Positions 2,307 to 21,831 of a DNA stretch of 64,000 nucleotides are shown one piece after another (within the stretch, counting starts at the first letter, position 1; the number at the start of each line of letters is the position of its first letter). Origin of the DNA: Alphaproteobacteria bacterium (GTDB lineage: Bacteria; Pseudomonadota; Alphaproteobacteria; Rhizobiales; Rhizobiaceae); assembly GCA_024742485.1 (NCBI GenBank), contig JANSYK010000001.1, positions 1,984,001 to 2,048,000 on the forward strand, given 5' to 3'. Both the position numbers and the translations under genes were made by a program. The notes beneath the pieces are model-generated. The model did not search any database. It saw nothing but the letters and a program-made list of their open reading frames with translations, and had not been told where the DNA came from.

Positions 2307-2312
2307 AACGCC

Positions 2313-3224: not shown

Positions 3225-3329
3225 CCGAGTGCCTCGTCCATCGACGGAACAACACCCGCAACAGGCCGTCCCCATCCGATGGCAACTCTACAGCGGACCC
3301 GTTGCATTATGCAATCGCAATCCGTAAAT

Positions 3330-3355
3330 TGGATATGATATCCATTAAATGGATA
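3330..3355. promoter_or_regulatory. Regulon operator (TATCCA-N5-TGGATA) with extra half-site, upstream of matB
   Basis: TATCCATTAAATGGATA (3339-3355) is an inverted repeat with a five-base spacer. Just upstream TGGATATGATATCCA (3330-3344) forms a second, tighter palindrome sharing the middle half-site, giving three half-sites in a row. It lies about 90 bases before the matB start, in the space shared with the divergent DMT gene. The same 6-5-6 element recurs at 13671, 15277 and 21813, so it is probably bound by the IclR-family protein encoded from 15359. Confidence 0.65.
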
Positions 3356-3442
3356 AAATACTGCCTGACAGAATAGCGGCGCAACCAGTTCAGCTGGAAC
3401 CCACCGACATGGGGCAGCACCGACCCGGGGAGAGGAAAAGCA

Positions 3443-4957
3443 ATGTCCGGTAACCTATTCAGAACAATCGAGGACGCCATCGCCGACCGCGCCGCACCGT
3501 TTCTGGTGCTGCCGGACGGGTCGCAGACAACCTATGGCGAAATGTTTGTGCTGAGCGGTCAATTCGCCCATGCCCTGACAGCAAATGGGGTTGCAAGGGG
3601 CGACCGGGTTGCCGTCCAGACGGGAAAATGTGCCGAGTGCCTGTGGCTTTACCTCGCCTGCCTCAGAATTGGCGCGGTCTATTTGCCGCTTAATTCGGCC
3701 TATACGGCAGCCGAGATCACCTATTTTGTCGGCGACGCCGAACCGACACTCTTCGTTTGCGATGCAGCTCGCCTGGACGATATGCGCCGGACCCTGGCCG
3801 ATGGCGCGCAGACGGTGCTGGCGATCACCGGGGCTGATGCCGAGAGCCTCGCCGCGCAAGCCGGCCGCATGCCCGAACAGTTTGACACCGTCGATATATT
3901 GGCTGACGACCTTGCCGCGATCCTCTACACCTCCGGCACAACGGGCCGGTCGAAAGGGGCGATGATCACCCACGAAAACCTGCGGTCAAACGCGCTCGCA
4001 CTCGTTGACATATGGCGTTTCGGTCCGGCCGACCGTCTGCTCCACGCGCTGCCGATCTATCACACCCATGGCCTGTTCGTGGCAACCAACACCATCCTGC
4101 TGGCCGGTGCCTCCATGCTTTTCCTGCCGAAATTCGATGTCGAAGCGGTGCTGAACTGTCTCCCACAGGCAACCACGATGATGGGTGTTCCGACCTTTTA
4201 CAGCCGTCTTCTGGCGCGCCCGGACTTTACGGCGGAGACAGTCAGTAACATGCGTTTGTTCATATCGGGTTCTGCCCCCTTGTCGGCGGAGGTCCATCGC
4301 ACATTCACCGCCCGAACCGGATTGGCCATTCTCGAACGCTACGGAATGACCGAAACAAACATGATCACCTCAAATCCCCATGACGGGCCGCGAAAGCCGG
4401 GGGCAGTCGGCTTCCCCCTTCCCGGCGTAACGGCCCGGATTGCTGACCCACATTCGGGACAGCTCCTGGATCAAGGCGAAATCGGCGTGATCGAACTAAC
4501 GGGACCGAACGTGTTCAAGGGCTACTGGCGCATGCCGGAAAAGACGCGCCAGGTCTTCCGGGACGACGGCTATTTCATCACCGGGGATCTTGGCTACATT
4601 GACGATGATGGCTATTTCACCATTTCGGGTCGCGACAAGGACCTCATTATCTCCGGTGGCCTCAACGTCTATCCCGCAGAGATCGAAAACGCCCTGGACG
4701 CACTGGACGGGATCGCCGAGTCGGCCATTATCGGCTTGCCTCACGCCGATTTCGGTGAGGCCGTGACGGCTATTGTCGTGGCGTCGGACACCCATGCCGT
4801 TGAAGAGGACACCATCCGGCGGCAACTCCAGTCCGATCTGGCGAAATTCAAGGTTCCAAGACGGGTTATCACCATCGACAGCCTGCCGCGCAACACCATG
4901 GGCAAGGTACAGAAAAACCTGCTGCGGGAAGAATTCGTCGATCTTTATCGTGAATAG
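3443..4957 (+). CDS. matB: Malonyl-CoA synthetase (MatB)
   Basis: 504 residues, typical of MatB. It is an ANL-superfamily adenylate-forming enzyme: the phosphate loop is YTSGTTGRSKG (about residues 162-172), the A5 motif is ERYGMTETNMITSNP, and the C-terminal catalytic lysine lies in LPRNTMGKVQKN. The motifs HALPIYHTHGLFV and ERYGMTETNM are close to those I recall from characterised bacterial malonyl-CoA synthetases, so malonate (or methylmalonate) is the likely substrate: malonate + ATP + CoA to malonyl-CoA + AMP + PPi. AGGAGAGG-like purines (ggggagagg) precede the ATG. The operator at 3330-3355 puts it in the local regulon, which suggests that malonate is an end product of the pathway encoded downstream. 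No malonyl-CoA decarboxylase is seen in the window. Confidence 0.88.
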   Translation: MSGNLFRTIEDAIADRAAPFLVLPDGSQTTYGEMFVLSGQFAHALTANGVARGDRVAVQTGKCAECLWLYLACLRIGAVYLPLNSAYTAAEITYFVGDAEPTLFVCDAARLDDMRRTLADGAQTVLAITGADAESLAAQAGRMPEQFDTVDILADDLAAILYTSGTTGRSKGAMITHENLRSNALALVDIWRFGPADRLLHALPIYHTHGLFVATNTILLAGASMLFLPKFDVEAVLNCLPQATTMMGVPTFYSRLLARPDFTAETVSNMRLFISGSAPLSAEVHRTFTARTGLAILERYGMTETNMITSNPHDGPRKPGAVGFPLPGVTARIADPHSGQLLDQGEIGVIELTGPNVFKGYWRMPEKTRQVFRDDGYFITGDLGYIDDDGYFTISGRDKDLIISGGLNVYPAEIENALDALDGIAESAIIGLPHADFGEAVTAIVVASDTHAVEEDTIRRQLQSDLAKFKVPRRVITIDSLPRNTMGKVQKNLLREEFVDLYRE

Positions 4958-4983
4958 TGCATTTCAGGATTGGGCGGCAACGA

Positions 4984-5916
4984 TCAATGCCGTTCCTCGC
5001 GCACGAAGGGCCGGCCGAGCGCGCCGGGTTCATCCGTGGCAGGATTGCGCGACAGGCTGGTCCAGACCATCACCGCCAGGGTCACCACATAGGGCATCAT
5101 CAGAACAAAATATTGCGGCACCTGAATGCCGATGGCAGCCACTCGGGGGATCAGCGCTTCCATGCAGCCGAACAAAACGGCGCCCGCAAGCGCCCGCCAG
5201 AGCCGCCAGCGGGCAAAGATGACGAGCGCAATGGCAATCCAGCCGCGACCGCCGGTCAGACCATCCACCCAGATTTTCGACACGACAACGGTCAGATATC
5301 CGCCGGCCAGACCAAGCAGCAGCGCACCGATCAATACGGCGACAAAGCGATAGGCCGTAACGTTGATCCCGGCCGCATCGGCGGCATCCGGATTCTCACC
5401 GACCGCGCGCAACCGCAACCCGGCATTGGTTTTGTTGAGCATGTGGACGGACACGAAAAACAGAACCACCGTCAGATAGACGATCAGATCCTGGCTGAAG
5501 ACGATACGGCCGATCACCGGTATATCGGAAAGAGGCCCGAGATCGATCGATGACAGACCGGTAAATGCCTTGTTGGTCCATCCCTGTTTCAAGGCGATGA
5601 GACTTGTCAGCCCTTGCGCCAGAAAGACAATCGTCAGCCCAGAAATCACCTGATTGACGCGCAAGAGGATAACCAGCGTGGCAAAGATCAGCGACAGGGC
5701 CGCCGAAGCAAGCGCTGCGACGCCAAGCGCCACCAACGGAAAGCCACCAAAGGTCAACACCGCACCGGCGCCTGCCATCGCGCCGACCAGCAGAAACCCC
5801 TCGGCACCGAGATTGAGCACACCGGATTTTTCACAGATGATCAGCCCGAGCGCGCCCAGCGCAAACGGAACAGCAAATCCGGGAATATTGGCTAGCCAGT
5901 TGATCAGAAAATCCAT
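4984..5916 (-). CDS. ABC transporter permease, nucleoside/nucleobase type (second permease)
   Basis: 310 residues, strongly hydrophobic, with the BPD_transp_2 layout (MDFLINWLANIPGFAVPFALGALGLIICEKSGVLNLGAEG; VNQVISGLTIVFLAQGLTS; VGENPDAADAAGINV). It is the shorter permease of a BMP-type importer comparable to the YufNOPQ and NupABC systems, which carry nucleosides. It starts six bases after the stop of the longer permease gene and is the last gene of the operon. It converges on matB. Confidence 0.88.
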   Translation of the reverse strand: MDFLINWLANIPGFAVPFALGALGLIICEKSGVLNLGAEGFLLVGAMAGAGAVLTFGGFPLVALGVAALASAALSLIFATLVILLRVNQVISGLTIVFLAQGLTSLIALKQGWTNKAFTGLSSIDLGPLSDIPVIGRIVFSQDLIVYLTVVLFFVSVHMLNKTNAGLRLRAVGENPDAADAAGINVTAYRFVAVLIGALLLGLAGGYLTVVVSKIWVDGLTGGRGWIAIALVIFARWRLWRALAGAVLFGCMEALIPRVAAIGIQVPQYFVLMMPYVVTLAVMVWTSLSRNPATDEPGALGRPFVREERH

Positions 5917-5922
5917 GATCGG

Positions 5923-7002
5923 CTACTCCACCCAGCGCACACGGTGTCGAATGAAGAACTCGGATGCAGCCACGCAGATGACGATAATCGCCTGGATGAG
6001 CTGCACCATGGCAAACGGGATCTGATAGAAAACCTGCAGGCTTTGTCCGGCAATCATCAGCGTCGCAACGAGGATCGATACCGCGACGATTCCAAGAGGA
6101 TTGTTGCGCGCCAGAAACGCAATCAGAATGCCCGAAAAGCCATATCCGATGAAGAAGGACTGCGTCATGCGTGACTCGATTCCAGCACTGATCGCAAAGC
6201 CGGCAAGGCCGGACAACGCGCCCGAGATCAGGGCTGCCGTCAGGGTCAACGCGGCGACCCGAACCCCGAGGGCCTTGGCCATTTGCGCATTGGAGTGCAC
6301 GAAGTTCAACTGAAAGCCGAACCGGCTCTTGACCATGAACCAGAAACAGAAAATCACCAGCGCCACGGCAATGAGCAGGGACGTATTGAGACTTTGCCAG
6401 CCCAGCGGCGCCAGCCGCTCGAAGTCCTCGAATTGTTCGGAATGGGGAAACGAACTGACCGGATCCTGCCAGGGTCCGTAGAGCAGATGCAGCAGGAAAT
6501 TGAAGGCAATATAGTTCATCAACAGGGTTGAAATGATCTCGTTGATCCGCAGCCGCAGCTTCAAGATCGTCGGAAGCAGGATCCACATCATCCCTCCGAG
6601 CGCCGCGAAAAAGGCCATCAGCGGAAGGCGCAGCGAGGGCGGGCCGATATCGTTGATTGCGACAAGGGTCGCGCCAATTGCGCCGAAGATCACCTGGCCC
6701 TCGATGCCGATATTCCAGAACCGCGCCTTGAAGGCGATCCCCGCCGACAGGCCCACAATGATCAGCGGTCCCGCCTGCACGAGAACACCGGAAATGTTCT
6801 TTGGGCTGGTGAAAATGAAGACCACGAATTCGTTCAGCAGCGCAGCGAGCCCGACACCGGAGACCAACAGGATCACGACGGAAATGACAAGCCCGGCTGC
6901 CACACCGGCAAGAAACGCCAGCGACTGCTTCCACATCGGCATGTCATCGCGGATTTCGAGATTGATGCGACCAAAACGCCGGGCTCTGGCAATGTCAGAC
7001 AT
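5923..7002 (-). CDS. ABC transporter permease, nucleoside/nucleobase type (first permease)
   Basis: About 359 residues from ATG 7002 (MSDIARARRFGRINLEIRDD). The start overlaps the stop of the ATPase gene (ATGTCTGA), which indicates translational coupling; a longer frame to 7050 would run deep into the ATPase gene. Conserved permease stretches are FWNIGIEGQVIFGAIGA and NEIISTLLMNYIAFNFLLHLLYGPW. It forms the heteromeric membrane channel with the 4984-5916 protein. Family members carry nucleosides; the real ligand here is inferred from the surrounding catabolic genes. Confidence 0.88.
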   Translation of the reverse strand: MSDIARARRFGRINLEIRDDMPMWKQSLAFLAGVAAGLVISVVILLVSGVGLAALLNEFVVFIFTSPKNISGVLVQAGPLIIVGLSAGIAFKARFWNIGIEGQVIFGAIGATLVAINDIGPPSLRLPLMAFFAALGGMMWILLPTILKLRLRINEIISTLLMNYIAFNFLLHLLYGPWQDPVSSFPHSEQFEDFERLAPLGWQSLNTSLLIAVALVIFCFWFMVKSRFGFQLNFVHSNAQMAKALGVRVAALTLTAALISGALSGLAGFAISAGIESRMTQSFFIGYGFSGILIAFLARNNPLGIVAVSILVATLMIAGQSLQVFYQIPFAMVQLIQAIIVICVAASEFFIRHRVRWVE

Positions 7003-8557
7003 GGCCCACCATCGCCTTTCCGATATCATGCCGGTCGGCGGGCGCATCAAATTCGGAAACTATCGTGCCCGAATTCATCACGCCGATCCGGTCGGACAGA
7101 AGCAGAATCTCGTCGAGGTCTTCGCTGATCAGCACGACGGCCGCCCCCGCATCTCGGGCGGACAAAAGGTGCCCGTGAACCGCCGCCGACGCACGCACAT
7201 CCAGTCCTCGGTTGGGACTGTGGGCGATCACCACGGTCGGATCACCGGAAAACTCCCTGGCAATCACCAGTTTCTGCGCATTGCCACCCGACAGGAGTGC
7301 CGATCGCTGACCATCGCTGCGAACACCTTGCACATCATATTTCTTCACGGCCGACCGGGTCGCACGCGTCATGGTTTTTCGGTCAAGACGCATCCATGAT
7401 CCGTATTTGCCGGACAAGACCCCGCCAATGGCGTAATTGTCCGAGACGCTGAGATCGCCCGCAAGCGCATAGCCCTGGCGGTCAGCCGGAATACAGGCGA
7501 CGCCAAAGCGCCGACGCTCATCCGACCGGGCAAGGGTGATGTCGCCCGGCCCATCCAGATAAAGATGTCCTTCCGATGGCGGGAGCAGCCCCATCAGCAC
7601 TTCCACCAACTCGCTTTGACCATTTCCGCCAACCCCGGCAATGCCGTAAATCTCACCGGATCGGACGTCAAAACTCAGATCACTGAGAACAGGCAGACCG
7701 TCCGCGCGCCGTGCAGCGACCTTTCGCACCGTTAATCGCGGTTTGCCGGTTACCGTGGACAGATGGCGCTTTTCAACGATCGATTCACCGACAATCATTC
7801 GGGTCAGGTCGGGCCCGGTCACCGCATCGGGAAGCACCGTGTCGACAACCTTGCCATTGCGCATCACCGTAATACGGTCGCTGTGCATCAGGGACTCGTT
7901 GAGATTATGGGTAACCAGGGCAACGCTGCAGCCGCTTTCGGCCAGCTTGCGGATGGCCTCGAGAAGTCGCTGCCCCTCCTCGTCGGTCAGAACAGCGGTC
8001 GGTTCATCCAGAATGATGATGTTGGCACCGGCCACCAGGACTTTCAGGATTTCGACCCGTTGCTGTTCGGCGATCGACAGGGCACCCACGGGTTTGTCGA
8101 GATCGACCTCAAATCCCACCAGATCGGCCTTTTCGGAGATCAGCTCCCGGACCCGTTGCAGGGACTGGCGATAGCCACCTGCAGCATTCGCCAACAAAAT
8201 GTTCTCGACCGTGTTGAATGGCATGACCAGCTTGTAATGCTGGTGCACCATACCGATCCGAAGGGACTGTGCATCGGACGGACCGCGAATCGACACCGTC
8301 TGGCCGGCGATTTCGATGGCGCCGCGATCTGCTGCATAAAGACCGGCTGCGACATTCATCAATGATGATTTTCCGGCCCCATTTTCACCGAGAAGGGCGT
8401 GAACTTCGCCCGAACGAAGGTCGAAATCGACATCATCGAGGGCAACAAAGTCACCGAAGGATTTCGTGATGGAGCGCAGTGCCAGGGCCGGCACGGCGGG
8501 ATCATGCGCCGGGCCGCTTTCAGCGTGAGCAGAAATGCGGCCCGGCCCGGTGGTCAT
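6995..8557 (-). CDS. ABC transporter ATP-binding protein with two ATPase domains, BMP/nucleoside type
   Basis: About 520 residues and two ABC cassettes in tandem. The first has Walker A GENGAGKSS, signature LSIAEQQRVEI and Walker B IIILDEPTAVL. The second has the degenerate loop GVGGNGQSELVE, signature LSGGNAQKLVIAREF and VIAHSPNRGLDVRA, as usual for YufO and RbsA-like proteins in which one half is inactive. The ATG at 8557 overlaps the stop of the BMP gene (ATGA), so the genes are translationally coupled. It energises uptake by the two permeases that follow. Confidence 0.9.
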   Translation of the reverse strand: MTTGPGRISAHAESGPAHDPAVPALALRSITKSFGDFVALDDVDFDLRSGEVHALLGENGAGKSSLMNVAAGLYAADRGAIEIAGQTVSIRGPSDAQSLRIGMVHQHYKLVMPFNTVENILLANAAGGYRQSLQRVRELISEKADLVGFEVDLDKPVGALSIAEQQRVEILKVLVAGANIIILDEPTAVLTDEEGQRLLEAIRKLAESGCSVALVTHNLNESLMHSDRITVMRNGKVVDTVLPDAVTGPDLTRMIVGESIVEKRHLSTVTGKPRLTVRKVAARRADGLPVLSDLSFDVRSGEIYGIAGVGGNGQSELVEVLMGLLPPSEGHLYLDGPGDITLARSDERRRFGVACIPADRQGYALAGDLSVSDNYAIGGVLSGKYGSWMRLDRKTMTRATRSAVKKYDVQGVRSDGQRSALLSGGNAQKLVIAREFSGDPTVVIAHSPNRGLDVRASAAVHGHLLSARDAGAAVVLISEDLDEILLLSDRIGVMNSGTIVSEFDAPADRHDIGKAMVGHV

Positions 8558-9633
8558 TGCTGGCTGGTCACACCGTCGACAAACCAGTCCATGCCCCAAA
8601 GAGCACCATCGTCAAGAACGGCACCCGCGGCAACGCGTTCCTTGCCTTCGCGATCCTTGAGTGGTCCGGCAAAGACATGCTTGCCGCCCATGATGGCATC
8701 GCGCTCGGCCATGATCTTGCCTTTGTCTTCATCGGAGACCGCATCGCCACAACAAACGATATCGGTTCCACCCTGGGCAATTGACAGAAAGGCACCATAG
8801 GGCTGGGATTCCCATTCACCTGCGGTGATCTTCTTGATTTCCGGGATCAGGAAGCGATCCCAGACCCAGGCCGACGAACATTGGGTGGCACTGCTGAACT
8901 CGGAAAGGTCACGGTGGTGCCCCGTTCCGTAAATGCCCTTCTCCTGCGCAACGATCTGCGGTGTCGGCGTATCGACATGCTGACCGATGACGTCGATGCC
9001 CTGTTCGGCAAGAGCTTCAGCGGCAGCCCGCTCCTTGACCGGGTCATTCCATGCGCCTGTGAACACAACCGTCACAGTGGCATCGGGATTGATCTGCCGG
9101 GCACCCAGCGCATAGGCATTGACGGTCCAGTTGACGAGACCGAACGGGTTGGCGGCCACGAAACCGAGCTTGCCGGTTTTGGATGCCGCTGCTGCGGCCA
9201 TGCCGCACAGATACTGGCTTTCATAGGTCCGGCCGTAATAGGACATGAGGTTGGTCCCATTGGTCGTGCCGGCCGGATTGAGAAACACCACATCCGGGTA
9301 CTTCTCGGCCAGTTCCTTGAACGCATCCGAATATCCGAAGGCCGAACCCAGAATGATGTTGTGCCCCCGGTCGATAAACAGCTCGACAGCCGGCTTGATC
9401 GCGGTGGCATTTTCCGGAACATTCTCCACGACCGGAATGGTCATGCCCAGTTCCTTTTCGATCTTCTGGCGCGCTTCGTCGAGCGCCTGCGACCAGCCGC
9501 CGTCATTCTTCTGAGAAAAAATAACCATGGCGGGCTTTGGATCGCCCTTCAGCACGAACTCGGCGCTGGCGCCGGCAATGGACGCTGCCAGCGCCATTCC
9601 GGCAAGGCCCCAGGTAATCAGTTGCTTGTGCAT
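8554..9633 (-). CDS. BMP family ABC transporter substrate-binding protein
   Basis: 359 residues. The signal peptide is MHKQLITWGLAGMALAASIAGASA, with cleavage predicted after ASA. The mature part reads like the Bmp/Med family of periplasmic nucleoside-binding proteins (KPAMVIFSQKNDGGWSQALDEAR; HNIILGSAFGYSDAFKELAEKYPDVVFLNPAGT). AGGGAG lies about nine bases upstream of the ATG. It heads the importer genes and lies 124 bases after the molybdenum hydroxylase large subunit, so it probably belongs to the same long transcript. Ligands known for the family are nucleosides and related heterocycles. Confidence 0.88.
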   Translation of the reverse strand: MHKQLITWGLAGMALAASIAGASAEFVLKGDPKPAMVIFSQKNDGGWSQALDEARQKIEKELGMTIPVVENVPENATAIKPAVELFIDRGHNIILGSAFGYSDAFKELAEKYPDVVFLNPAGTTNGTNLMSYYGRTYESQYLCGMAAAAASKTGKLGFVAANPFGLVNWTVNAYALGARQINPDATVTVVFTGAWNDPVKERAAAEALAEQGIDVIGQHVDTPTPQIVAQEKGIYGTGHHRDLSEFSSATQCSSAWVWDRFLIPEIKKITAGEWESQPYGAFLSIAQGGTDIVCCGDAVSDEDKGKIMAERDAIMGGKHVFAGPLKDREGKERVAAGAVLDDGALWGMDWFVDGVTSQQ

Positions 9634-9757
9634 GTGTCTGTTCTCCCTTCACGGACGGCCCGACCGAGACGGGTCGCGAGTATGAGTTTGTACCATTCCA
9701 ATTCTGTTGTTGTTATGCTGGATGGCCCCGGTTGGTTTCCTTCAATTCTGAACGCAT

Positions 9758-12145
9758 TCAGCCCGTGCTGATCGCATCGTAAATCATGCTCGGTGTAATT
9801 GGCGTGTGATGGAACTTGTGGTCGCCGAACGGTTTCAGGGCATCGGCCACGCCTGACGCAACCGTTGCACCGACTGCAATGCACCCGGCTTCGCCGACAC
9901 CCTTGACGCCGAGCGGATTGAGCGGAGACGGTGTTTCCAGATGCTGGATATCCACCTCGGGAACCTCGGTCGCATAGGGGATCAGGAAGTCGACAAAATT
10001 CGCATTGGTCGGGTTGCCGTCCTGGTCATATTCGATGCGCTCCATCAGCGCGCCGCCAAATCCCTGCGCCAGCCCGCCCATCACCTGGCCGTCGACAATC
10101 ACCGGATTGATCATGTTGCCGCAGTCGTGGATGCAGACATATTTCTGAATCTCGACGCTGCAGGTATCCGGGTCGATCTCGACGATTGCAGCGTGAACAC
10201 CATAGGCCCAGGTCGCACATTCGGGGCTGTAATAGTCGGTCGCCTCCAAACCTGGATGCTGTCCTTCATCCAGCGGTGGACCATCATGCCGGCTGGCCGG
10301 TGCAAATTGGGTCGCCGCCTGCGCCGCATCATTGAAGGCGTAACGCAGCGGATTGGTCGCTGTCGCAATCGCAGCCAGCGGAACGTTGCGATTGCCGCCA
10401 ATGATCCACGCGGCACCGTCACGCAGTTCGATCTCTTCGGGATCGGCTTCCAGCATGTTGGCGGCAGCCGTGATCGTTTGCTTGCGGACCAAAAGCGCTG
10501 TCTTGTGAATGGCATTGCCGGACACGACCGCCGCACGGCTGGCAAATGTGGCCACACCCCAATCATAGGCGCCGGTATCGCCCTCCGTGAGAATGACATC
10601 CTCGACGGCGACACCCAACTGATCAGCAACAATCTGTGCAAATACGGTCTCGTGGCCCTGTCCCTGGCCGGACAGCCCAGTGTTCACATAGACCTTGCCG
10701 GTGATCGGGTGAATCTTGATATGACCACCCTCATAGGGACCAAGTCCCGTGCCTTCGACGTAATAGGCAAGTCCCAGTCCGAGATATCTGCCTTCGGCTC
10801 GCGCCGCTTCCTGCCGTGCGGCAAAATCATCGGCACCGATGGACGCGTGCACCATTTCAAGCGCCTTGTGATACTGCCCGCTGTCAAGGCTGACACGCAG
10901 CCCGTCTGCGAAGAGCAACCCTTCACGCACAAGGGGGAACTCATCCTCGGTAACAAGGTTGCGGCGCCGCACCTCAAACCGGTCAAGGCCAAGTTCTTCC
11001 GCAAGTTGATCCATCGCCCGCTCGATGGCGAAGCATGATTGCGGCCGACCGCAACCACGATAGGGCGTCACCGGCACGGTCGGGGTATAGACGGCCTGAA
11101 ACCGCACTTCGATATTCGGAATGCGGTAGGGCCCTGCGATCGATGTCGAGGCGACCTGCGCCACCGCGATTCCATAGGGAATGAAGGCCCCGGTGTCATG
11201 CAGGAAGAAATCCTTGAGCGCCACCACCTCGCCATTCTTCCGGGCGTGCAACTCGATCATATGAATCTGGGTTCGTTCCTGGGTCGAACCGATGAAGTTC
11301 TCTCGCCGGTCCTCGATGTATTTCACCGGGCTTCCCAGTTGCATGGCGGCGAATGGAACCAGCAATTCATCCGGATAGAACAGCAGCACCTTCTGGCCAA
11401 AGCCGCCGCCGACATCGGGCGCAACCACACGCACCTTGTCCTCGTCAAGTTCCAGGATCGATGCCAGGCCACCACGCACCGAAATCGGTGCCTGGGTGGT
11501 GTCCCAGACGATCAGTTCTCCCGTGATCTCATCATAACGCGCTGCAACAGCACGGCATTCCATGGCCGCGGAGGTCGAGCGATCAACCTGGATCTGTATG
11601 CGCGTGACGTGGTCTGCCTCGGCATAACCGGATTGCGGATCGCCGCAAATCTGGTTGAAATCGGCCGCAACATTGTTGGGATGTGTTGCGTGGACCAGCG
11701 GCGCGTCATCCTTGACGGCGGCTTCGAGATCAAGCTCCACATCAAGCGGCTCGTAATCGACATCGACCAGCAACGCCGCATCTTCTGCGGTGTAGCGATC
11801 CACTGCCACGATCATGGCAACGGTTTGCCCGACATAATAGACGTCGTCTCGGGCCAGCGGGCGCTGGGTCTGTGCATCCGTCATCGATTCATGCGGAATG
11901 AGCAATGGCATCTTGATGTCGAGAGGACCGATATTGTCACAGGTGTAGACCGCGATCACACCAGGATGGGCTTCTGCCTCGGATGTATCGATCCCATTGA
12001 TGCGCGCCCGGGCAAACGGGCTGCGCACAAACGCGGCGTGTCTGACACCGGGCAGCGCAATGTCATCGACATAGGCACCCTCGCCCTTGAGGAATTTCGC
12101 ATCCGCATTGCGCTTGACCGGCGCCCCGAACATCCGTGTCGACAT
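9758..12145 (-). CDS. Molybdenum hydroxylase large subunit (xanthine dehydrogenase/CoxL family)
   Basis: 795 residues, the normal length for the Mo-cofactor subunit. The start is supported by AGGAG six bases upstream. Visible motifs are RMFGAPVKRNADAKFLKGEG, DVGGGFGQK, and the catalytic glutamate in GVKGVGEAGCIAVGA. The active-site loop reads YRGCGRPQ, not the CSFR loop of true aerobic CO dehydrogenase, so this is a hydroxylase of an organic substrate such as a heterocycle or aldehyde rather than a CO dehydrogenase. It works with the FeS subunit (12155) and FAD subunit (12682). The nucleoside-type importer downstream and amide hydrolases nearby favour an N-heterocycle, which would be hydroxylated with water as oxygen source. 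Confidence 0.88.
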   Translation of the reverse strand: MSTRMFGAPVKRNADAKFLKGEGAYVDDIALPGVRHAAFVRSPFARARINGIDTSEAEAHPGVIAVYTCDNIGPLDIKMPLLIPHESMTDAQTQRPLARDDVYYVGQTVAMIVAVDRYTAEDAALLVDVDYEPLDVELDLEAAVKDDAPLVHATHPNNVAADFNQICGDPQSGYAEADHVTRIQIQVDRSTSAAMECRAVAARYDEITGELIVWDTTQAPISVRGGLASILELDEDKVRVVAPDVGGGFGQKVLLFYPDELLVPFAAMQLGSPVKYIEDRRENFIGSTQERTQIHMIELHARKNGEVVALKDFFLHDTGAFIPYGIAVAQVASTSIAGPYRIPNIEVRFQAVYTPTVPVTPYRGCGRPQSCFAIERAMDQLAEELGLDRFEVRRRNLVTEDEFPLVREGLLFADGLRVSLDSGQYHKALEMVHASIGADDFAARQEAARAEGRYLGLGLAYYVEGTGLGPYEGGHIKIHPITGKVYVNTGLSGQGQGHETVFAQIVADQLGVAVEDVILTEGDTGAYDWGVATFASRAAVVSGNAIHKTALLVRKQTITAAANMLEADPEEIELRDGAAWIIGGNRNVPLAAIATATNPLRYAFNDAAQAATQFAPASRHDGPPLDEGQHPGLEATDYYSPECATWAYGVHAAIVEIDPDTCSVEIQKYVCIHDCGNMINPVIVDGQVMGGLAQGFGGALMERIEYDQDGNPTNANFVDFLIPYATEVPEVDIQHLETPSPLNPLGVKGVGEAGCIAVGATVASGVADALKPFGDHKFHHTPITPSMIYDAISTG

Positions 12146-12154
12146 GAAATGCTC

Positions 12155-13560: not shown

Positions 13561-13670
13561 CTGCTACCTCCCGGGTTAAGGTCTTGCCGGTTGCCGATTT
13601 GCCGGAATTGCAACCTTCCCGTCTTTCTGCGAAATTCTGGTTCGTTCGGCCTTCGGATTAGCTCCTTTTA

Positions 13671-13687
13671 TATCCACATAATGGATA
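13671..13687. promoter_or_regulatory. Regulon operator upstream of the molybdenum hydroxylase operon
   Basis: TATCCACATAATGGATA is a perfect 6-bp inverted repeat with a five-base spacer, 111 bases before the FAD-subunit start. The flank continues CTGTATCTAACAATTGAGTATAC, which contains another partial TATC half-site. It has the same spacing as the sites at 3339, 15277 and 21813. Confidence 0.7.
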
Positions 13688-13805
13688 CTGTATCTAACAA
13701 TTGAGTATACGCGCGTGGATTTGATCCTGTCAACAGGATTTGGCGGGAGACCTGCGTTCCAAGGGCCAACGAACGATCGCACCTGAGGCACCTGTCGCGA
13801 ATTGT

Positions 13806-15227: not shown

Positions 15228-15276
15228 TTCCGATCGGCTCCCTCAACATTGCGGTGGCAAATTGAACCATATGCCT

Positions 15277-15295
15277 GTATCCAGTGGGTGGATAC
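15277..15295. promoter_or_regulatory. Regulon operator between the amidase and iclR-type genes
   Basis: GTATCCAGTGGGTGGATAC is a perfect 7-bp inverted repeat with a five-base spacer (position good to about one base). It lies about 50 bases before the amidase start on one side and about 65 before the IclR-type gene start on the other, as expected for an autoregulated divergent promoter. This is the most symmetrical of the four copies and argues that the adjacent regulator is the one that binds. Confidence 0.7.
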
Positions 15296-15358
15296 ACCAC
15301 CGATTGTTTTCCGGGACGATCAGCCCGAACAGGGGCTGCCCAATGGAATGTTCGCACC

Positions 15359-16159
15359 ATGAGTCTTGATACCAAAAAAGCTTCGAAATCCACACCCGGC
15401 AAGGCTTTGCCAGGCATGGAGCGGTCTTTTGCGATCCTCGAATTGATTGCCGCCCGGCCCAGTCGCGTGGTCGATGTCACCAACGAACTCAACCTTCCAT
15501 GGGCAACGGTTCACCGGACAATCAAGAAGCTGGAAGCCGCGCAGTTCATCTACCGGGATACCGAAACCAACCGGTATGAAATCGGCCCGCGCATGTGGCA
15601 TATCGGTTCGGCCTACCTGGCCAACAACAAGCCGATGAACACGGCAATTTCCTATCTCGCGAGCGAACGCAACATCAAGAATGTCGACATCCAGATTGTC
15701 GAGAGGATCGGAAATTACGCGGTCGTCACCCACGCGGAAAAACGCCAGACCCACCCGATTTACAAGGCGCAATACGGATTTCATATTCCGCTTCACGCCG
15801 GTTCGAAGGGATGGGTGTTGCTGGCCTATGCGGATCCGGATTTCATTGAGCACTATGTGGAGCAGGATCTGGAGCAGCTCACGCCATCGACAATTGTCGA
15901 CAAGGCAGAGTTGCTTGCCAAACTGGATGAAGTCCGGGAGAACGCATACGCCTTCACACTTTCCGATGTTCAGCCCTTCACCGGATCGATGTCCGCGCCG
16001 ATATTCAACGCATCCGGTGCCATGGTGGCGTGTGTCTGTTTTGTTTTCCTCAAGAAGATTGCCAGCAACACAAAGCTGATGGAAGAGCTGCGCGAGCACC
16101 TTGAATTGATGACCCACACGATCTCCATCGAGCTCGGCTGGCGTCCGGGTCACAGCTGA
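15359..16159 (+). CDS. IclR family transcriptional regulator
   Basis: About 266 residues from ATG 15359; an upstream in-frame GTG near 15284 lies inside the operator and is unlikely. The N-terminal winged helix is SFAILELIAARPSRVVDVTNELNLPWATVHRTIKKLEAAQFIYRDTETNRYEIG, and the C-terminal IclR effector domain follows (HAGSKGWVLLAYADPDFIEHY...FTGSMSAPIFNASGAMVACV). IclR proteins bind inverted repeats of about this size and respond to small organic acids. It is the only IclR gene in the window and adjoins the best copy of the repeated operator, so it is the probable regulator of matB, the Mo hydroxylase-importer operon, the amidase and the hyuAB operon. Confidence 0.88.
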   Translation: MSLDTKKASKSTPGKALPGMERSFAILELIAARPSRVVDVTNELNLPWATVHRTIKKLEAAQFIYRDTETNRYEIGPRMWHIGSAYLANNKPMNTAISYLASERNIKNVDIQIVERIGNYAVVTHAEKRQTHPIYKAQYGFHIPLHAGSKGWVLLAYADPDFIEHYVEQDLEQLTPSTIVDKAELLAKLDEVRENAYAFTLSDVQPFTGSMSAPIFNASGAMVACVCFVFLKKIASNTKLMEELREHLELMTHTISIELGWRPGHS

Positions 16160-16230
16160 GATCGGAGCGACGGGCGCTTGGATTGCATCATTCGACCGTT
16201 CAATTTTGTTTCCTGACCTCATCAATTCCA

Positions 16231-16317
16231 GGTTTTGACGGAACCGGCAAAGCCTGAATGCATCAACAAGATCAAGGGCCGACACCGTTGTTGCGTTTCT
16301 GAGAACACGTGAAACGG
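16231..16317. repeat. Dispersed two-hairpin repeat, copy A
   Basis: About 87 bases running from GGTTTTGACGGAACCGGCAA through GGCCGACACCGTTG to CACGTGAAACGG. It closely resembles the stretches at 47651 and 58824. The first half folds as GGTTTTGaCGG/CCGGCAAAGCC; the second pairs CGTTTC with GAAACG. It lies between the convergent IclR and creatininase-family genes and ends at the latter's stop codon. It may act as a bidirectional terminator or a REP-like element. Confidence 0.7.
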
Positions 16318-16318
16318 A

Positions 16319-17098
16319 CTAGTCGATCTCCTCATAGGAACCACGAAGATTCTTGAAGGTTTCCTCAAGCGCATCAACCACCGCATCAATCGAGGCCTGC
16401 CCCATCTCTGCCGTTGCCTTCGTCGGATCACCGAAAATGGCAGCGTGTCCGACATCGGGCCGCGGCCGCTTCATATAGGTTCGCGTCGGATTGGTCGGCG
16501 CAACAAGGTCCCAGCCAACGGGCCCGTAATGGGCACCGTCAAGACGGTCCATCTTGACCAGTTCCGGCCGGGTCGCCAGCTGGAATGATGTTTCGAGTTC
16601 GCCGGCATGCCCCATTCCGCCCTCAACGGATTTGCGGATCGCGTGGATTTTGTCGGCGGCCGGCTCCCAATAGCTCACCGCCGACACTTTGAAAGTGTGG
16701 GCGTGATCCAGTTCGTCGATCAGAAGCCGCGCGACCTGGTCGTTTGCCGTTCCGCTTGGCCGATTGCCGTTCAGCAGGATCAGATGCTCAAACCCCTGCC
16801 CCACCAGCGCAGCACCAATTTCGAACATCATGGTCTGATAGGTTGGAATGGACAGCGAAATGGTACCCGGAAAGTGCTCGAAGGTTTTTGAGATGCCATA
16901 GGCAATGGGCGGCGCGACCAGTGCGTCCAGTCGCTCGGCAAGCCGCAATGCGATATATTCGGCCTGGTGGGTATCGGTGTCCGTCGGCATATGCGGCCCA
17001 TGCGCTTCGGTCGCCCCGGTGGGAATGATGACGGCGCATTTTCGTTCGATCGCCTCGCCGACTTCCATCTGCGTCATTGAAGACATCCGGTGTTCCAT
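16319..17098 (-). CDS. Creatininase-family amidohydrolase with altered metal site
   Basis: 259 residues, the normal family length. The first metal-binding stretch is intact (PTGATEAHGPHMPTDTD, with Glu, His and Asp ligands), and the late motif GHAGELETS is present. The usual NGHGGN (NGHYEN in creatininase) reads NGNRPSGTAN, so the metal-binding histidine is absent. Family enzymes open cyclic amides such as creatinine or act on related C-N bonds, so a ring-opening role would suit the pathway. The changed site means that the activity could differ or use one metal. GGGAG precedes the start by seven bases. The gene is last in the hyuA-hyuB-coxG operon. Confidence 0.8.
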   Translation of the reverse strand: MEHRMSSMTQMEVGEAIERKCAVIIPTGATEAHGPHMPTDTDTHQAEYIALRLAERLDALVAPPIAYGISKTFEHFPGTISLSIPTYQTMMFEIGAALVGQGFEHLILLNGNRPSGTANDQVARLLIDELDHAHTFKVSAVSYWEPAADKIHAIRKSVEGGMGHAGELETSFQLATRPELVKMDRLDGAHYGPVGWDLVAPTNPTRTYMKRPRPDVGHAAIFGDPTKATAEMGQASIDAVVDALEETFKNLRGSYEEID

Positions 17099-17127
17099 CG
17101 CTCAGCTCCCTTTCATCTGCAGTGCAA

Positions 17128-17751
17128 TCATGGCTTCCGTGAAAACAGCCGTTTGAAATAACCGGCAATGACCATGCGCATCAGCGCCAGACCATTGACC
17201 GCATTATCGGCGCGAGGCGCAACCGCAACCGGTTCGGACGGTTTATCCGCCCCATCGTCGTCAGCAACCGGCTGAACTTCGTCCTCACCGGTGGCCGGAG
17301 AATGCGCTGACGCTAGCTTTGCCTCAAGATTGGTGACGAACTGGCCAATCAGCAATTTGGCCGTTTCCTCGATCACACCGGCCCGTCCGAATTGCGCAAT
17401 GGGTCCGGAGAGCTGGACATCGGCATCAACACTGACCTCGGTCTGTGCGCCATTGTCTTTCAACGCATAGTCCATCACCAGTTTTGACCGTGAACCGCCC
17501 CGCTTGTCGAAACCCTTGCCCTCCGCATGACCGGTCCGGGCCGTTTCGTCCACCTGAACCTTGGCTTCGCCCTCGAAGGATGCCGTAAAGGGGCCCAGCT
17601 TGATCGCCACCTGCCCCGTATAGACGCCATCGCCCTTGTCTTCATTAAGGCTGGCGCCGGGCATGCATTCGGCAAGTTCCGGAATATTCTGAAAAAAGGT
17701 CCAAACCACATCCGGCGGCTGGCTGACATTGAAGGTCTGACTGATTTTCAA
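17128..17751 (-). CDS. CoxG/SRPBCC family protein
   Basis: 207 residues beginning with a TTG codon at 17751 that has GGAG seven bases upstream. The SRPBCC fold is recognised from MKISQTFNVSQPPDVVWTFFQNIPELAECMPGASLNE and PFTASFEGEAKVQVDETARTGHAEGKG. The C-terminal tail from about residue 150 is acidic and variable, ending in a basic stretch (VIAGYFKRLFSRKP) that could touch the membrane. CoxG proteins accompany molybdenum hydroxylases and are thought to anchor or help mature them. It sits between hyuB and the creatininase-family gene, away from the Mo subunits but in the same inferred regulon. Confidence 0.85.
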   Translation of the reverse strand: MKISQTFNVSQPPDVVWTFFQNIPELAECMPGASLNEDKGDGVYTGQVAIKLGPFTASFEGEAKVQVDETARTGHAEGKGFDKRGGSRSKLVMDYALKDNGAQTEVSVDADVQLSGPIAQFGRAGVIEETAKLLIGQFVTNLEAKLASAHSPATGEDEVQPVADDDGADKPSEPVAVAPRADNAVNGLALMRMVIAGYFKRLFSRKP

Positions 17752-17832
17752 AGTCCGTCTCCGGGTTGCTTTCGTCGGCGTTGGGTGACCAGTCTCAAAT
17801 ACGCAAGGTATCAGGAACCAGCGCGCGCAACA

Positions 17833-19734
17833 TCAATCGATTTCGGCCCCGACAGCGTTCCAGTCCTGATCGGGATCTGTCCAGCCGTTCGGATAATTGA
17901 CCTTGCCGGACTGCTTCATCGCGTCAAATGCGCCGCCCCGATCGAACATCGGCAACGCGCCGCGTTCCTTTCGAATGGAGGCCCGGTGCTCTTCCGTTTT
18001 CTCCCGGTCAGCCACCCATTTGCGACCATCGAGATGGACAACGACACCATAGTCGTCACGCGCTGACTGTTCGGTGATCAGTCCGCATTGCAGATCATAG
18101 ACAACCATGTCGATCTCGCGATCCAGCGGGTCGCCCCATCCGCCGCCGCCGGTGGTCACCACCCGCACGGATGCATCGGGCGGCACGACGACCGTGTCGC
18201 ACATGCCCGGATAGACCGCTTCATTTCCGGTCTGATCGATCATCGACACCTGATAGCTCATGCCAGCCTGACCGCCATTGACGCCATAACAGCCGAGGAT
18301 CGACCGGTCCGCGTTTGATATCAGGCGGCACTCCTCCAGCGCCCGGATGCGTTTGTCGTAGCCCAGGCCGCCACGACGATAGCCGGCGCCGCCCGAATCC
18401 CGTTTCAGCGCCAGTTGCTCGACCATGATCGGATAACGGATTTCAGAAAACTCTGCCGGCAGGTTTCGTGAGTTCGGCACGATATGCACCACATCGGAAC
18501 CATCAGCCCACGGGCGGCCGGGACCGCCACCGCCGAGCACTTCTCGAAACAGGTAGAATTCTTCCTGAGTGCCGCCGCCAGTCAGACCCCATATTCGGAT
18601 GGTTTCATGGTCGGCCGGCATTTTCCCGCCTGTCGCCTTGGAAAGGCAGGCGGCGAAGATTCCAAGAGAACGCAGCATCAGGAAAAACCGCATGCCTGTC
18701 GGCTTGCTGAAGGTCGGGGTGATCAGGGTACCCTTTTCCGGGAACTTGATCTCGATGACATCGAGCACGCCCTCGTTGGAATCGATTTCCGCTGCCCGTT
18801 CCGGCGAGCTGGCAAGCGAACGCAGCACTGGCGCCAGCCATTTGCGAAAGTATCGACCTTCCACCTCGTCAAGAGACCAGTTGATCGGACCTTTGGCTTC
18901 CGGGTCCGTTCCGTTGAAATCGAGGATGATCTTCTCCGGCGTCTTCGTCATTGTCAGGCGAAGCGCATGCAATCTCGGCTCGTCGACACCGTCGGCCTCG
19001 ATATAATCCTCGTAGTGATAGGTTCCGTCCTTGATCTTCGGGAAAATTTCACGGCGGAAGATTTCCGCCGTGTTCCGGATGATCTGTTCGAAGGCGGATT
19101 CCAGCGTGTCCACACCGTACCGCTCGGCCAGGGCGACAATCCGGCGTGACCCCAGCTTGGCCGCGCCGATCTCCGCGTCCAGATCACCTGCCAGATGTTC
19201 GGACAGGCGCGAGTTTCGAACGATGATCTTGAAGGCCGCATCATTGAGCACACCGCCATCGTAGAGCTTGATGGGCGGGATCAGAACACCTTCCATCCAG
19301 CTGTCGGTGGCATGAACGGGCAGGCTGCCCGGCACGGAACCGCCGATATCGTCATGATGGCCGAACACTTGCGAAAACCCGATCAGCCGATCACCGTGGA
19401 AGATCGGCACGGTGGTGCACAAATCCGGCACATGGCCGATACCGCCACAGGAATTGTAGGGATCGTTCCAGAAAAACACGTCGCCCGGATTAATGTCGTC
19501 CTCGCCAAAATACTCGAATACCGGCTCAACGATGGCAGAGTAGGAGCGCCCGGTCAGCTTGCGTCCCTTCGCATCGAACAGGGCAACCCGATAGTCGTGC
19601 TGGTCACGGATCATGGGTGATCGGGCGGTCCGCTCGACAGCCGCCTCGATTTCCAGCTCGGCCGCGCGGATCGTCCCGTGGATGACCTCCAGCTCAATGG
19701 GGCCAAGGTCGGATGGGGATTGGTGTTTTGTCAT
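17833..19734 (-). CDS. hyuB: Hydantoinase B/oxoprolinase family protein, first copy
   Basis: About 633 residues from ATG 19734 (MTKHQSPSDLGPIELEVIHG); the start is supported by GAAGG upstream, and a longer frame to 19815 would overlap hyuA. Family motifs include TARSPMIRDQHDYRVALFD, DVFFWNDPYNSCGGIGHVPDL and VFGHHDDIGGSVPG. With HyuA it forms an ATP-dependent cyclic-amide hydrolase; related enzymes act on 5-oxoproline, N-methylhydantoin or, in the carboxylase branch, acetone and acetophenone. It follows hyuA by 13 bases. The substrate is not predictable from sequence alone. Confidence 0.88.
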   Translation of the reverse strand: MTKHQSPSDLGPIELEVIHGTIRAAELEIEAAVERTARSPMIRDQHDYRVALFDAKGRKLTGRSYSAIVEPVFEYFGEDDINPGDVFFWNDPYNSCGGIGHVPDLCTTVPIFHGDRLIGFSQVFGHHDDIGGSVPGSLPVHATDSWMEGVLIPPIKLYDGGVLNDAAFKIIVRNSRLSEHLAGDLDAEIGAAKLGSRRIVALAERYGVDTLESAFEQIIRNTAEIFRREIFPKIKDGTYHYEDYIEADGVDEPRLHALRLTMTKTPEKIILDFNGTDPEAKGPINWSLDEVEGRYFRKWLAPVLRSLASSPERAAEIDSNEGVLDVIEIKFPEKGTLITPTFSKPTGMRFFLMLRSLGIFAACLSKATGGKMPADHETIRIWGLTGGGTQEEFYLFREVLGGGGPGRPWADGSDVVHIVPNSRNLPAEFSEIRYPIMVEQLALKRDSGGAGYRRGGLGYDKRIRALEECRLISNADRSILGCYGVNGGQAGMSYQVSMIDQTGNEAVYPGMCDTVVVPPDASVRVVTTGGGGWGDPLDREIDMVVYDLQCGLITEQSARDDYGVVVHLDGRKWVADREKTEEHRASIRKERGALPMFDRGGAFDAMKQSGKVNYPNGWTDPDQDWNAVGAEID

Positions 19735-19747
19735 AGTGCCAGCACCT

Positions 19748-21799
19748 TCAACCGCTTTTGCCAAGGATAAGATTGCCATAGTCGTCACAGGCAGCCGACC
19801 ACCCTTTCGGAACAACCGTGGTGGAGCCGTATTCCTCGATGATGGCGGGGCCCGTCACTTTCTGCTCCACGGCAAGCGATTGCCGGTCGAAGATTGGACA
19901 GTCGACCCAGCCCGTCTCCTTCCAGAAGGCCTTTCGGATCTGGGCCGGCTCGGCAGCCATGCGGTCATTGGCGACGACCGCTATGTCGGGCCGGTGTTGT
20001 TCGCCGACCGCCTGCACCCTCAGATTGACCAGTTCGACATCCTGCTCGCCCTCATATTGAAAGCCGAATGTTTCATCATGTACCGTGTGGAACTGCTTCC
20101 ACATATGCGCGACGGCTTGTTCGTCACTCAGGCCCGGCGGGATCGTGACCTGAACTTCATGCCCCTCACCAAAATAGCGGACATCCGCGACATAAACGGT
20201 CTTGATCCGCTCCTCGGCAATGCCTTCGCCGCGAATATCGTCAATTCCCTCGCGCGCCAGCGCTTTCCAGGTATCGATGATTTCCTGCGTATCGGCCGTC
20301 GATTGCCGCCGCACGATGGTGCGAATGTAGTCACGCCGAACATCCGAAACATGCAGGCCGAGCGCACACAGATTGCCCGGATTCGGGGGAGAAATGATCG
20401 TTGTGATTCCCAGAAAATCTGCAACCTCGGTTGCGAAAAGTCCGCCGGCCCCGCCAAATGCGACCATGGCATATTGGCCGGGATCGCGACCCCGGGTCGT
20501 GGTGACCTGGCGAATGCCGAACACCTGATTGACTGCTGCGATTTCCAGCACCCCGGCGGCGATCTCCTCAGCCGACATGCTGTGCTGTGCACCAAGAACG
20601 CCGTAGGCCGCTCGGGCCGACTCAAGATCCAACTGGATTTCACCGCCGATCAGGGCCGTTGGCAAGCGCCCGAGAACGATGGCGGCATCGGTCACGGTGG
20701 GTTTCTTGCCGCCCTTTCCGTAGCAGATCGGACCCGGATCGGCGCCGGCGCTCTGCGGTCCGACCTTCAAATTGCCATAGGGATCGGTCCAGGCAATAGA
20801 ACCACCGCCTGATCCGACGGTCACGATGTCGAGCATCGGAGTCTTGACCGGATAGTTCTCGACCATCGAATCCGATGTGTACATCGGCGTCTGGTTCTCG
20901 ATGATCGCGACATCGGTGGATGTCCCGCCGACATCGCTGGTCAGAATATTGTCGTAACCTGCCAGCTTGGCCATGTGGATGGCGCCCAGGATCCCCGCAG
21001 CCGGGCCTGAAAGAAGCATGGTAACCGGACGTTCACTGGCGGTGGAATGGGTAACGACACCACCGTTGGACTGCATGATCAGGAACGGTATGTCGCCGGA
21101 TCGCGCCTTCAGCTCATCGGCGGCATTTTGCAGATAGGTCTTGCAATAGGGTTTCACCAGAACATCGATCAGCGTCGTCATGGCGCGTTCATATTCCCGG
21201 TACTCGGGTAGCACGACGCTGGACAGGGACACAAAAACGTCCGGAAAATGCGCCTCGATCAGCGCGCCGATCTTTTTTTCGTGATCGTCATTGGCATAGG
21301 AGTGCAGCAGGCACACGGCGATACATGTCACACCATCCTCGACCAGCTCGCGAACCGCCTGGAGCGTTTCGGCTTCGTCGATGGGGGCAAGTTCCGTGCC
21401 GTCATATTTCATGCGTCCCGGCACTTCGCGCACCAGGTCGAGCGGCACCAGACGCTTCGGCTTGACCCAGAAAAAGGAGTTCCCATAGCCATCGGGGACC
21501 GATTGCCGGGCAATTTCGATGAGATGTCTGAACCCGCTGGTCACCAAAAGGCCGAGGCCGGCGAATTTGTGCTCAAGCACCGCATTCGTTGCAACGGTCG
21601 AGCCATGCAGCAACAGATTGAGGTCTGCGGGATTGCCTCCATCGCCATCAAAGATTTTCTCGACACCGTTCAGCAAACCGATACTTGGATCCGTGGGCGT
21701 TGACGGTGTTTTCACGGCCGTCATCGCACCGGTCTGTTCGTTGATTGCCACCACATCGGTGAACGTACCGCCCGTATCGATCGCGATCCTGGTGCCCAT
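19748..21799 (-). CDS. hyuA: Hydantoinase A/oxoprolinase family protein, first copy
   Basis: About 683 residues from ATG 21799 (MGTRIAIDTGGTFTDVVAI), with GGAGG six bases upstream. The ASKHA-type ATP site is seen in IDTGGTFTDV and later MLLSGPAAGILGA and TSDVGGTSTDVAI. It provides ATP-dependent activation of the substrate for the HyuB partner. It is the first gene of the operon hyuA-hyuB-coxG-creatininase-family; the operator at 21813 lies directly upstream of its ribosome-binding site. Confidence 0.88.
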   Translation of the reverse strand: MGTRIAIDTGGTFTDVVAINEQTGAMTAVKTPSTPTDPSIGLLNGVEKIFDGDGGNPADLNLLLHGSTVATNAVLEHKFAGLGLLVTSGFRHLIEIARQSVPDGYGNSFFWVKPKRLVPLDLVREVPGRMKYDGTELAPIDEAETLQAVRELVEDGVTCIAVCLLHSYANDDHEKKIGALIEAHFPDVFVSLSSVVLPEYREYERAMTTLIDVLVKPYCKTYLQNAADELKARSGDIPFLIMQSNGGVVTHSTASERPVTMLLSGPAAGILGAIHMAKLAGYDNILTSDVGGTSTDVAIIENQTPMYTSDSMVENYPVKTPMLDIVTVGSGGGSIAWTDPYGNLKVGPQSAGADPGPICYGKGGKKPTVTDAAIVLGRLPTALIGGEIQLDLESARAAYGVLGAQHSMSAEEIAAGVLEIAAVNQVFGIRQVTTTRGRDPGQYAMVAFGGAGGLFATEVADFLGITTIISPPNPGNLCALGLHVSDVRRDYIRTIVRRQSTADTQEIIDTWKALAREGIDDIRGEGIAEERIKTVYVADVRYFGEGHEVQVTIPPGLSDEQAVAHMWKQFHTVHDETFGFQYEGEQDVELVNLRVQAVGEQHRPDIAVVANDRMAAEPAQIRKAFWKETGWVDCPIFDRQSLAVEQKVTGPAIIEEYGSTTVVPKGWSAACDDYGNLILGKSG

Positions 21800-21812
21800 A
21801 TTGTCCTCCACA

Positions 21813-21831
21813 ATATCCAAATAGCGGATAT
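21813..21831. promoter_or_regulatory. Regulon operator upstream of the first hyuAB operon
   Basis: ATATCCAAATAGCGGATAT is a 7-bp inverted repeat with a five-base spacer and one mismatch to the consensus at the A/C position. It ends only about 14 bases before the hyuA start and abuts the ribosome-binding site, so binding would block transcription start or early elongation. Same architecture as the sites at 3339, 13671 and 15277. Confidence 0.65.

Follow-up and report, generated by a model that had tools for sequence, protein, structure and literature searches.

A shared palindromic operator marks a catabolic regulon, very probably under a nearby IclR-family protein, in a Rhizobiaceae genome

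The closest described counterparts of the operator reported here are found among the binding sites of IclR-family regulators. According to the main text of Suvorova and Gelfand (2021; PMC8222616), group 1 of these sites follows the motif GKTYCRYW3-4RYGRAMC with the core TYCRYW3RYGRA, tandem sites 18-22 base pairs (bp) apart occur in 94 of 181 groups, a spacing that fits tetramers bound on one face of the DNA, and the commonest position of a site centre is -22 from the start codon. Table 1 of that article gives ATTCC-N7(5)-GGAAT as the site of GenR from Corynebacterium glutamicum, which belongs to the 3-hydroxybenzoate/gentisate genes. In excerpts of PMC6402643, BlcR of Agrobacterium tumefaciens is described as an IclR-family repressor that sits as a tetramer ahead of a catabolic operon. 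Here we describe an inverted repeat, TATCCA-N5-TGGATA, that recurs near an IclR-family gene in a stretch of 64,000 nucleotides (the window, whose numbering is used below) from an alphaproteobacterium of the family Rhizobiaceae (assembly GCA_024742485.1, contig JANSYK010000001.1, positions 1,984,001 to 2,048,000). The operator and its regulon are real, and very probably one switch ties together fourteen genes of uptake and breakdown through the nearby repressor.

As far as the main text of PMC8222616 defines IclR group 1, sites of the window's type share its core, its tandem spacing and its position (-22 to -26 at hyuA in 9 of 13 loci), but their outer bases are TA...TA instead of GK...MC; the nearest subgroup, WTT-11-AAW, differs from the present site at the second base. 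The GenR site, as listed in Table 1, has the same build of 5-bp arms and a 7-bp centre (compare TATCC-N7-GGATA), whereas the letters of the arms differ. The structure of BlcR (3mq0) is a sequence relative of the window's IclR protein (P0001; E 2.8e-10), for which the best structural match is 2g7u, but the genes found here are others, BlcR serving the gamma-butyrolactone pathway. HyuA, CoxL, xanthine, malon, COG0145 and COG0146 do not occur in the main text of PMC8222616. By title and abstract, no paper on this operator or gene set was present among the matches listed, the subscription literature lying outside the search, and the literature search returned none joining barbiturase with hydantoinase, or hydantoinase with IclR and pyrimidine. 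The regulon is new; the family is known and the IclR architecture is ordinary.

Operator copies in the window and in the genome

A pattern scan of the window located exact copies of TATCCA-N5-TGGATA starting at 3339, 13671 and 15278. The copy at 21814-21830 reads TATCCAAATAGCGGATA, in which one arm base differs and the TATCC-N7-GGATA core is whole. An initial annotation had proposed that four intergenic regions carry the same inverted repeat with a spacing of five bases, which is exact for three of them and needs one mismatch for the fourth. The copy between the amidase gene and iclR, annotated at 15277-15295, does exist as an exact repeat, located at 15278-15294. That the window holds no other such site is correct for exact matches only, as a site at 9934-9950, within the coxL-like gene, has one mismatch and is as good as the 21814 copy. 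Nor is it clear that the most symmetrical copy is the one at iclR, because the arms of the copy at 3339 span 8 bp on either side of a single central base and the copy at 15278 reaches 8-bp arms if extended outwards.

In the whole assembly (6,867,895 bases) the exact pattern occurs three times, every time in the window and within 12 kilobases (kb), so that, for exact copies, the random occurrence elsewhere in the genome envisaged as a refutation did not appear in these 6.87 megabases. Allowing one mismatch gives seven sites, three exact and four with one mismatch; four are the intergenic ones named above, and the other three sit in open frames, namely 9934-9950, C102:451035 (a frame of 673 amino acids) and C154:421306 (1175 amino acids). 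The 9934 site was set aside as an operator because it is coding; the coxL gene of the relative G003 retains it with two mismatches, and it bears no functional sign. With up to two mismatches the genome holds 153 sites versus 79 for the reversed control, and therefore weak single matches carry little meaning.

Chance AT-rich palindromes, or sequences resembling DnaA boxes, could in principle produce such repeats. Some family of repeats with 6-bp arms and three exact copies was present in 12 of 200 order-3 simulated windows, which makes the window by itself weak evidence, and the 13671 copy contains TATCCACA, which we take to be close to a DnaA box. However, TATCCA-N5-TGGATA itself was not found exactly in any of 500 order-3 simulations of the window, the only exact copies in the genome are the clustered ones, and they are conserved ahead of the same genes in relatives. 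A chance origin was rejected on these three grounds, and DnaA boxes because TATCCACA is missing from the remaining two exact copies; we give either origin almost no credence. The operator is judged real because it is unique genome-wide and conserved in relatives.

Three of the four window sites proved to be tandem pairs, with a second, weaker palindrome at exactly 20 bp from start to start (3319/3339, 13671/13691 and 21814/21834) that had been overlooked earlier; the iclR/amidase site is single. The spacing was assessed on 26 sites with at most one mismatch (the coding 9934 site included) from 15 loci that carry an IclR gene, counting as a partner any palindrome with at least 8 of 12 matches. 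A partner was found at +20 for 13 sites and at -20 for 5, whereas all other offsets from 8 to 60 together gave 2, so that 18 of the 26 anchors have their second palindrome inside the 18-22 bp interval. After dropping 9934 and pooling both orientations, the 25 remaining sites read TATCC-R-Y-WWW-R-Y-GGATA and agree with the group 1 core TYCRYW3RYGRA (frequencies T 1.0, C 1.0, C 0.98, R 0.96, Y 0.74, W 0.90/0.96/0.90, and the mirror), an agreement that only the five central positions test independently, the sites having been chosen with at most one mismatch to TATCCA-N5-TGGATA.

Conservation of the operator together with the IclR gene

The protein encoded beside the single operator belongs to the IclR family by both of its domains (HTH_IclR 28.0 bits against a cut-off of 22, IclR_C 71.1 against 24). 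The 15 loci are the window (genome G000) and 14 others, in which the orthologs show 38-88% identity; IclR is present in each by selection. The orthologs came from assembled genome contigs (five loci, one on the same contig as G003), from 61 relatives (G003 besides the window's own) and, at E 1e-40, from 397 genomes of the order (five besides the window's) and 385 of the class (four besides); weaker IclR paralogs among the 61 relatives were left out of the count. A sample of 398 genomes of the phylum yielded no ortholog beyond the window's own, and plasmid records no relative at 1e-30. Most contigs of the compared loci are short. L018, from Mesorhizobium sp. Root552, comprises hyuA, hyuB, the creatininase gene and the amidase gene as well as operator sites. 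All 14 IclR sequences long enough to include the recognition helix, the window's among them, read WATxHRT there; the sequence of G793 is cut.

The initial annotation had suggested a search upstream of the corresponding genes in relatives, and this check was run on these loci. Of the 13 loci with a hyuA start, window included, 12 have a site with up to two mismatches whose centre lies 16-59 bp ahead of the start codon, and the main site falls at 22-26 bp in nine of the 13; the chance expectation from the window genome's rate is about 0.003 sites per 160-bp promoter. Of the 11 loci in which the start of coxM is clear (G114, where the coxM match is only 26% identical, was excluded), 8 have a site ahead of this gene. 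In the other three, G624, G586 and G510, coxM follows hyuB immediately and on the same strand, and for that reason needs no site of its own. Amidase promoters carry the site in 7 of 8 loci, with 2-3 mismatches in five of those seven, and matB promoters in three of the five loci with matB (G000, G003 and G114); in L019 and L020 a malonyl-CoA decarboxylase frame stands ahead of matB, and the sites are found between this frame and the DMT gene.

Site and regulator gene also occur together across genomes. Among the 61 relatives the exact pattern is found in 11, and two or more copies in none but the two ortholog carriers, G000 and G003. We then counted the refined pattern TATCCRNWWWNYGGATA in 397 genomes of the order, a draw that contains all six ortholog carriers: it is present in 5 of the 6 with the ortholog versus 23 of the 391 without (one-sided Fisher p = 7e-6, to be taken as a guide only, like all p values here, since the genomes are related by descent and the pattern was refined on sites from some carriers). 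Two or more refined sites within 20 kb were seen in 3 of 6 carriers versus none of 391 non-carriers, and all nine refined sites in carriers fall in the IclR locus. Two genomes, G291 and G385, have several copies of the refined pattern, on different contigs. Taken together, the conservation, the co-occurrence and the IclR-typical class of the site with its 20-bp tandem spacing support one regulon under the IclR protein, and it is very probable that this protein binds the operator. Binding by another protein, be it the adjacent AraC-type or GntR-type regulator or one encoded elsewhere, would find its best argument in the AraC gene, which is divergent from hyuA and right beside the 21814/21834 operator. 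Yet neither of these two regulators has a tblastn match (1e-12) in the stretches of the 14 other loci, some of which end soon after hyuA (2.4 kb beyond the hyuA start in G003, 1.7 kb in L017), and, by the main text of PMC8222616, 17-bp palindromes phased at 20 bp are a typical IclR feature. The lack of matches in the other loci's stretches led us to judge the AraC and GntR proteins unlikely binders, and a binder other than the IclR protein is, in any form, improbable.

Predicted action of the proposed repressor at the promoters

The tandem operator of the molybdenum-hydroxylase/importer operon lies over TTGACA-18-TATACT, the best sigma-70-like promoter within 2300-22000. The distal operator overlaps its predicted -10; with a transcription start seven bases downstream, the proximal operator would occupy about +10 to +26. 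Ahead of each of the eight coxM sites, a pair of promoter-like hexamers matching at 10-11 of 12 positions, chosen as the best of all placements in 240 bp without a shuffled control, begins 42-46 bases before the start of the site. Its first hexamer is TTGACA in seven loci and TTGACG in G392, and its -10 begins 20-22 bases before the site in all eight. Overall, the promoter scan gave no excess over shuffles (8 versus 7.9), and we therefore rely on the conserved coxM promoter alone. Operators lying across a promoter close to consensus are what repression usually looks like, and because the operators cover the near-consensus molybdenum-hydroxylase promoter, repression is most likely the mode of control at this operon.

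According to the mechanism that we propose, the IclR-family protein would act as a local repressor whose dimers bind the 17-bp site TATCCRYWWWRYGGATA. Two adjacent dimers would occupy the same face of the DNA at the 20-bp tandem pairs ahead of matB/DMT, the molybdenum hydroxylase/importer and hyuAB-coxG-creatininase, and a single dimer would bind between the promoter of iclR itself and that of the amidase gene. At the molybdenum-hydroxylase promoter the pair of dimers would cover the -10 hexamer and the transcription start and so block RNA polymerase. An inducing metabolite of the pathway would release the repressor, so that uptake, hydroxylation and opening of the ring, amide hydrolysis and malonate activation would all start at once. 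The same protein might instead work as an activator or a dual regulator. Activators normally sit upstream of the -35 hexamer; here the coxM promoter-like pair is itself upstream of the site in every locus that has one, and the main hyuA site mostly lies close to the start codon, at the 22-26 bp given above. Although the IclR family includes activators and dual regulators (main text of PMC8222616), we regard this alternative to plain repression as unlikely.

Several observations weigh against local repression by the IclR protein. Single exact sites occur in 9 of 59 relatives without the ortholog, versus 3 of 61 genomes for the reversed control. Many of the loci share descent, and the counts of loci and genomes are not independent. 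The thirteenth hyuA locus, that of G586, has no site of standard spacing; its hyuA promoter (L074 11131-11148) carries TATCC-N8-GGATA, with arms eight bases apart versus seven, which was noticed post hoc. No site within two mismatches is present in the 6.8 kb of G793. Between iclR and the amidase gene the site stands alone, and its counterparts in relatives are weaker (2-3 mismatches in L017-L020 and G390), which makes autoregulation less secure than the control of hyuA and coxM. The best promoter pairs at hyuA score 8-11 of 12 (8 in the window), weaker than those at coxM. Finally, positions 1-2 of the 25 sites are T (0.98) and A (1.0), not the GK of group 1. On balance, local repression by the IclR protein with release by an inducer is, in our judgement, a highly likely explanation of the four-promoter operator.

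Genes under the operators and a candidate pathway

The features of the locus are collected in Table 1. Within HyuAB, the nearest relative of HyuA is N-methylhydantoinase, and caprolactamase models match the pair only under their cut-offs. The large subunit of the molybdenum hydroxylase (9758-12145) passes the aerobic carbon monoxide (CO) dehydrogenase model NF040766 (974 versus 950 bits), and the nearest structures of the enzyme are 8uem, a CoxL, and 1t3q, quinoline oxidoreductase. The active-site loop of form I aerobic CO dehydrogenase is AYxCSFR, whereas the loop of the large subunit reads PYRGCGR. By this loop, a criterion drawn from general knowledge, CO oxidation was judged unlikely, and the name CO dehydrogenase is probably misleading for this subunit.

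Table 1. Coordinates of genes, operators and the predicted promoter in the window
Feature	Position	Strand	Remarks
DMT/EamA transporter	2313-3275	-	
Tandem partner operator, 2 mismatches	3319-3335		20 bp from 3339; same pair in G003
Operator, exact	3339-3355		between divergent DMT and matB genes
Malonyl-CoA synthetase (MatB)	3443-4957	+	NF005702, 764.7 bits against cut-off 558
BMP-type ABC importer: two permeases, ATPase, binding protein	4984-9633	-	nearest solved structure AtzT 6pi5
Molybdenum hydroxylase, large/small/medium subunits (coxLSM-like)	9758-13560	-	
Operator, exact	13671-13687		proximal half of tandem operator, molybdenum-hydroxylase/importer operon
Tandem partner operator, 3 mismatches	13691-13707		overlaps -10 hexamer
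Sigma-70-like promoter TTGACA-18-TATACT (predicted)	13704-13733	-	molybdenum-hydroxylase operon
Amidase-signature hydrolase	13806-15227	-	
Operator, exact	15278-15294		between divergent amidase and iclR genes
IclR-family regulator (P0001), 266 amino acids, proposed repressor	15359-16159	+	Pfam HTH_IclR and IclR_C; orthologs
Creatininase-family amidohydrolase	16319-17098	-	
CoxG-like protein	17128-17751	-	
HyuB and HyuA, ATP-dependent cyclic-amide hydrolase family (N-methylhydantoinase/caprolactamase relatives)	17833-21799	-	
Operator, 1 mismatch	21814-21830		centre 23 bp before hyuA start
Tandem partner operator, 3 mismatches	21834-21850		
AraC-type regulator	21895-23076		divergent from hyuA, beside 21814/21834 operator
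GntR-type regulator (HutC-like)	23103-23843		

Beyond the regulon, the segment 23103-30413 holds a second HyuAB pair, genes of a TRAP-type transporter (recognised by eye) and the HutC-like GntR regulator, with no operator copy within two mismatches. On the other side, an aspartate-dehydrogenase-like gene (881-1705) adjoins the DMT gene and has no upstream operator of its own within three mismatches. Among the compared loci, matches to hyuA, hyuB, BMP and coxL are fragmented in G392:C29 6084-9859 and 16614-20232 (L070, L071), through assembly errors or real decay.

The oxidative (barbiturate) route of pyrimidine catabolism is known in actinobacteria and consists of ring hydroxylation and two amide cleavages, with malonate as a product. 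These steps would fit the present gene set. Unlike the actinobacterial route, the barbiturase family PF09663 has no match in 12 of the 15 genomes, the window's included and some of them incomplete, and HyuAB would open the ring instead. PF09663 (barbiturase/cyanuric acid hydrolase) genes are present in G624, G586 and G392 on contigs other than that of the locus (L077, L078, L079, L080). RutA was over its cut-off in none of the 15 genomes, which is neutral for a pyrimidine substrate. Malonate-using enzymes are placed behind the same operator, as matB in three of five loci and as the decarboxylase-matB pair in L019 and L020. Of 105 neighbouring frames, 18 were scanned, picked partly after reading their sequences. 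Malonyl-CoA decarboxylase lies beside matB in L019 and G114 by Pfam and in L020 by match position, and in all three the locus holds the sole genomic copy. Further neighbours are a uridine phosphorylase just under the family cut-off (L017), a cytosine-deaminase-like protein below cut-off with XdhC (G114), a ribokinase (G624) and a biuret-hydrolase-like isochorismatase below cut-off (G510). Ten of the 18 contributed no pathway gene (acyl-CoA dehydrogenase, stress protein, caspase-lectin, Rieske, two luciferase-like, FMN dehydrogenase, EamA and others). Read together with the window genes, the relatives' neighbours suggest uptake of a base or nucleoside, hydroxylation and opening of the ring, and use of malonate, and those in some relatives point to a possible malonate-forming pyrimidine pathway. 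Malonate is the likely endpoint, and a pyrimidine, or perhaps a similar ring, is a possible substrate.

Compared with AtzT, with residue numbers mapped by hand from excerpts of PMC6834077, the importer keeps the aromatic sandwich (Tyr45 to Trp, Trp194 to Trp); Ser97, Glu165, Asn218 and Asn220 are replaced by Ala, Leu, His and Asp, on account of which a guanine-type ligand was judged unlikely. AtzT itself binds uracil and barbituric acid poorly, at 1600 and more than 8000 micromolar (excerpts of PMC6834077). The difference in this pocket is one of several points that speak against pyrimidines. matB is present in only 5 of the 15 loci; malonyl-CoA decarboxylase is encoded in 13 of the 15 genomes, in G000 and G003 as a single copy outside the locus; uridine phosphorylase, ribokinase and the cytosine-deaminase-like gene were found in one locus each; and a PreA gene of the reductive pathway exceeds its cut-off in 7 of the 15 genomes, among them G000, where it lies outside the locus. 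It is with some reserve, and as the less probable case, that we put forward an undescribed alphaproteobacterial pathway in which a pyrimidine (nucleo)base would be taken up and hydroxylated by the molybdenum enzyme to a barbiturate-type ring; HyuAB, replacing barbiturase, would open this ring at the expense of ATP, malonate would pass to MatB and malonyl-CoA decarboxylase, and one IclR repressor would sense an intermediate.

The main interest of the regulon is its pointer to a catabolic pathway. The site gives a testable list of genes that act together while their family names diverge (CO dehydrogenase, N-methylhydantoinase, creatininase, importer, amidase, malonyl-CoA synthetase), and it narrows their annotation to one question, the ring compound that acts as inducer. 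If the substrate is indeed a pyrimidine, these would be candidate genes for malonate-forming pyrimidine breakdown outside actinobacteria. Other orders of the class show this site paired with this regulator, which defines a conserved catabolic unit.

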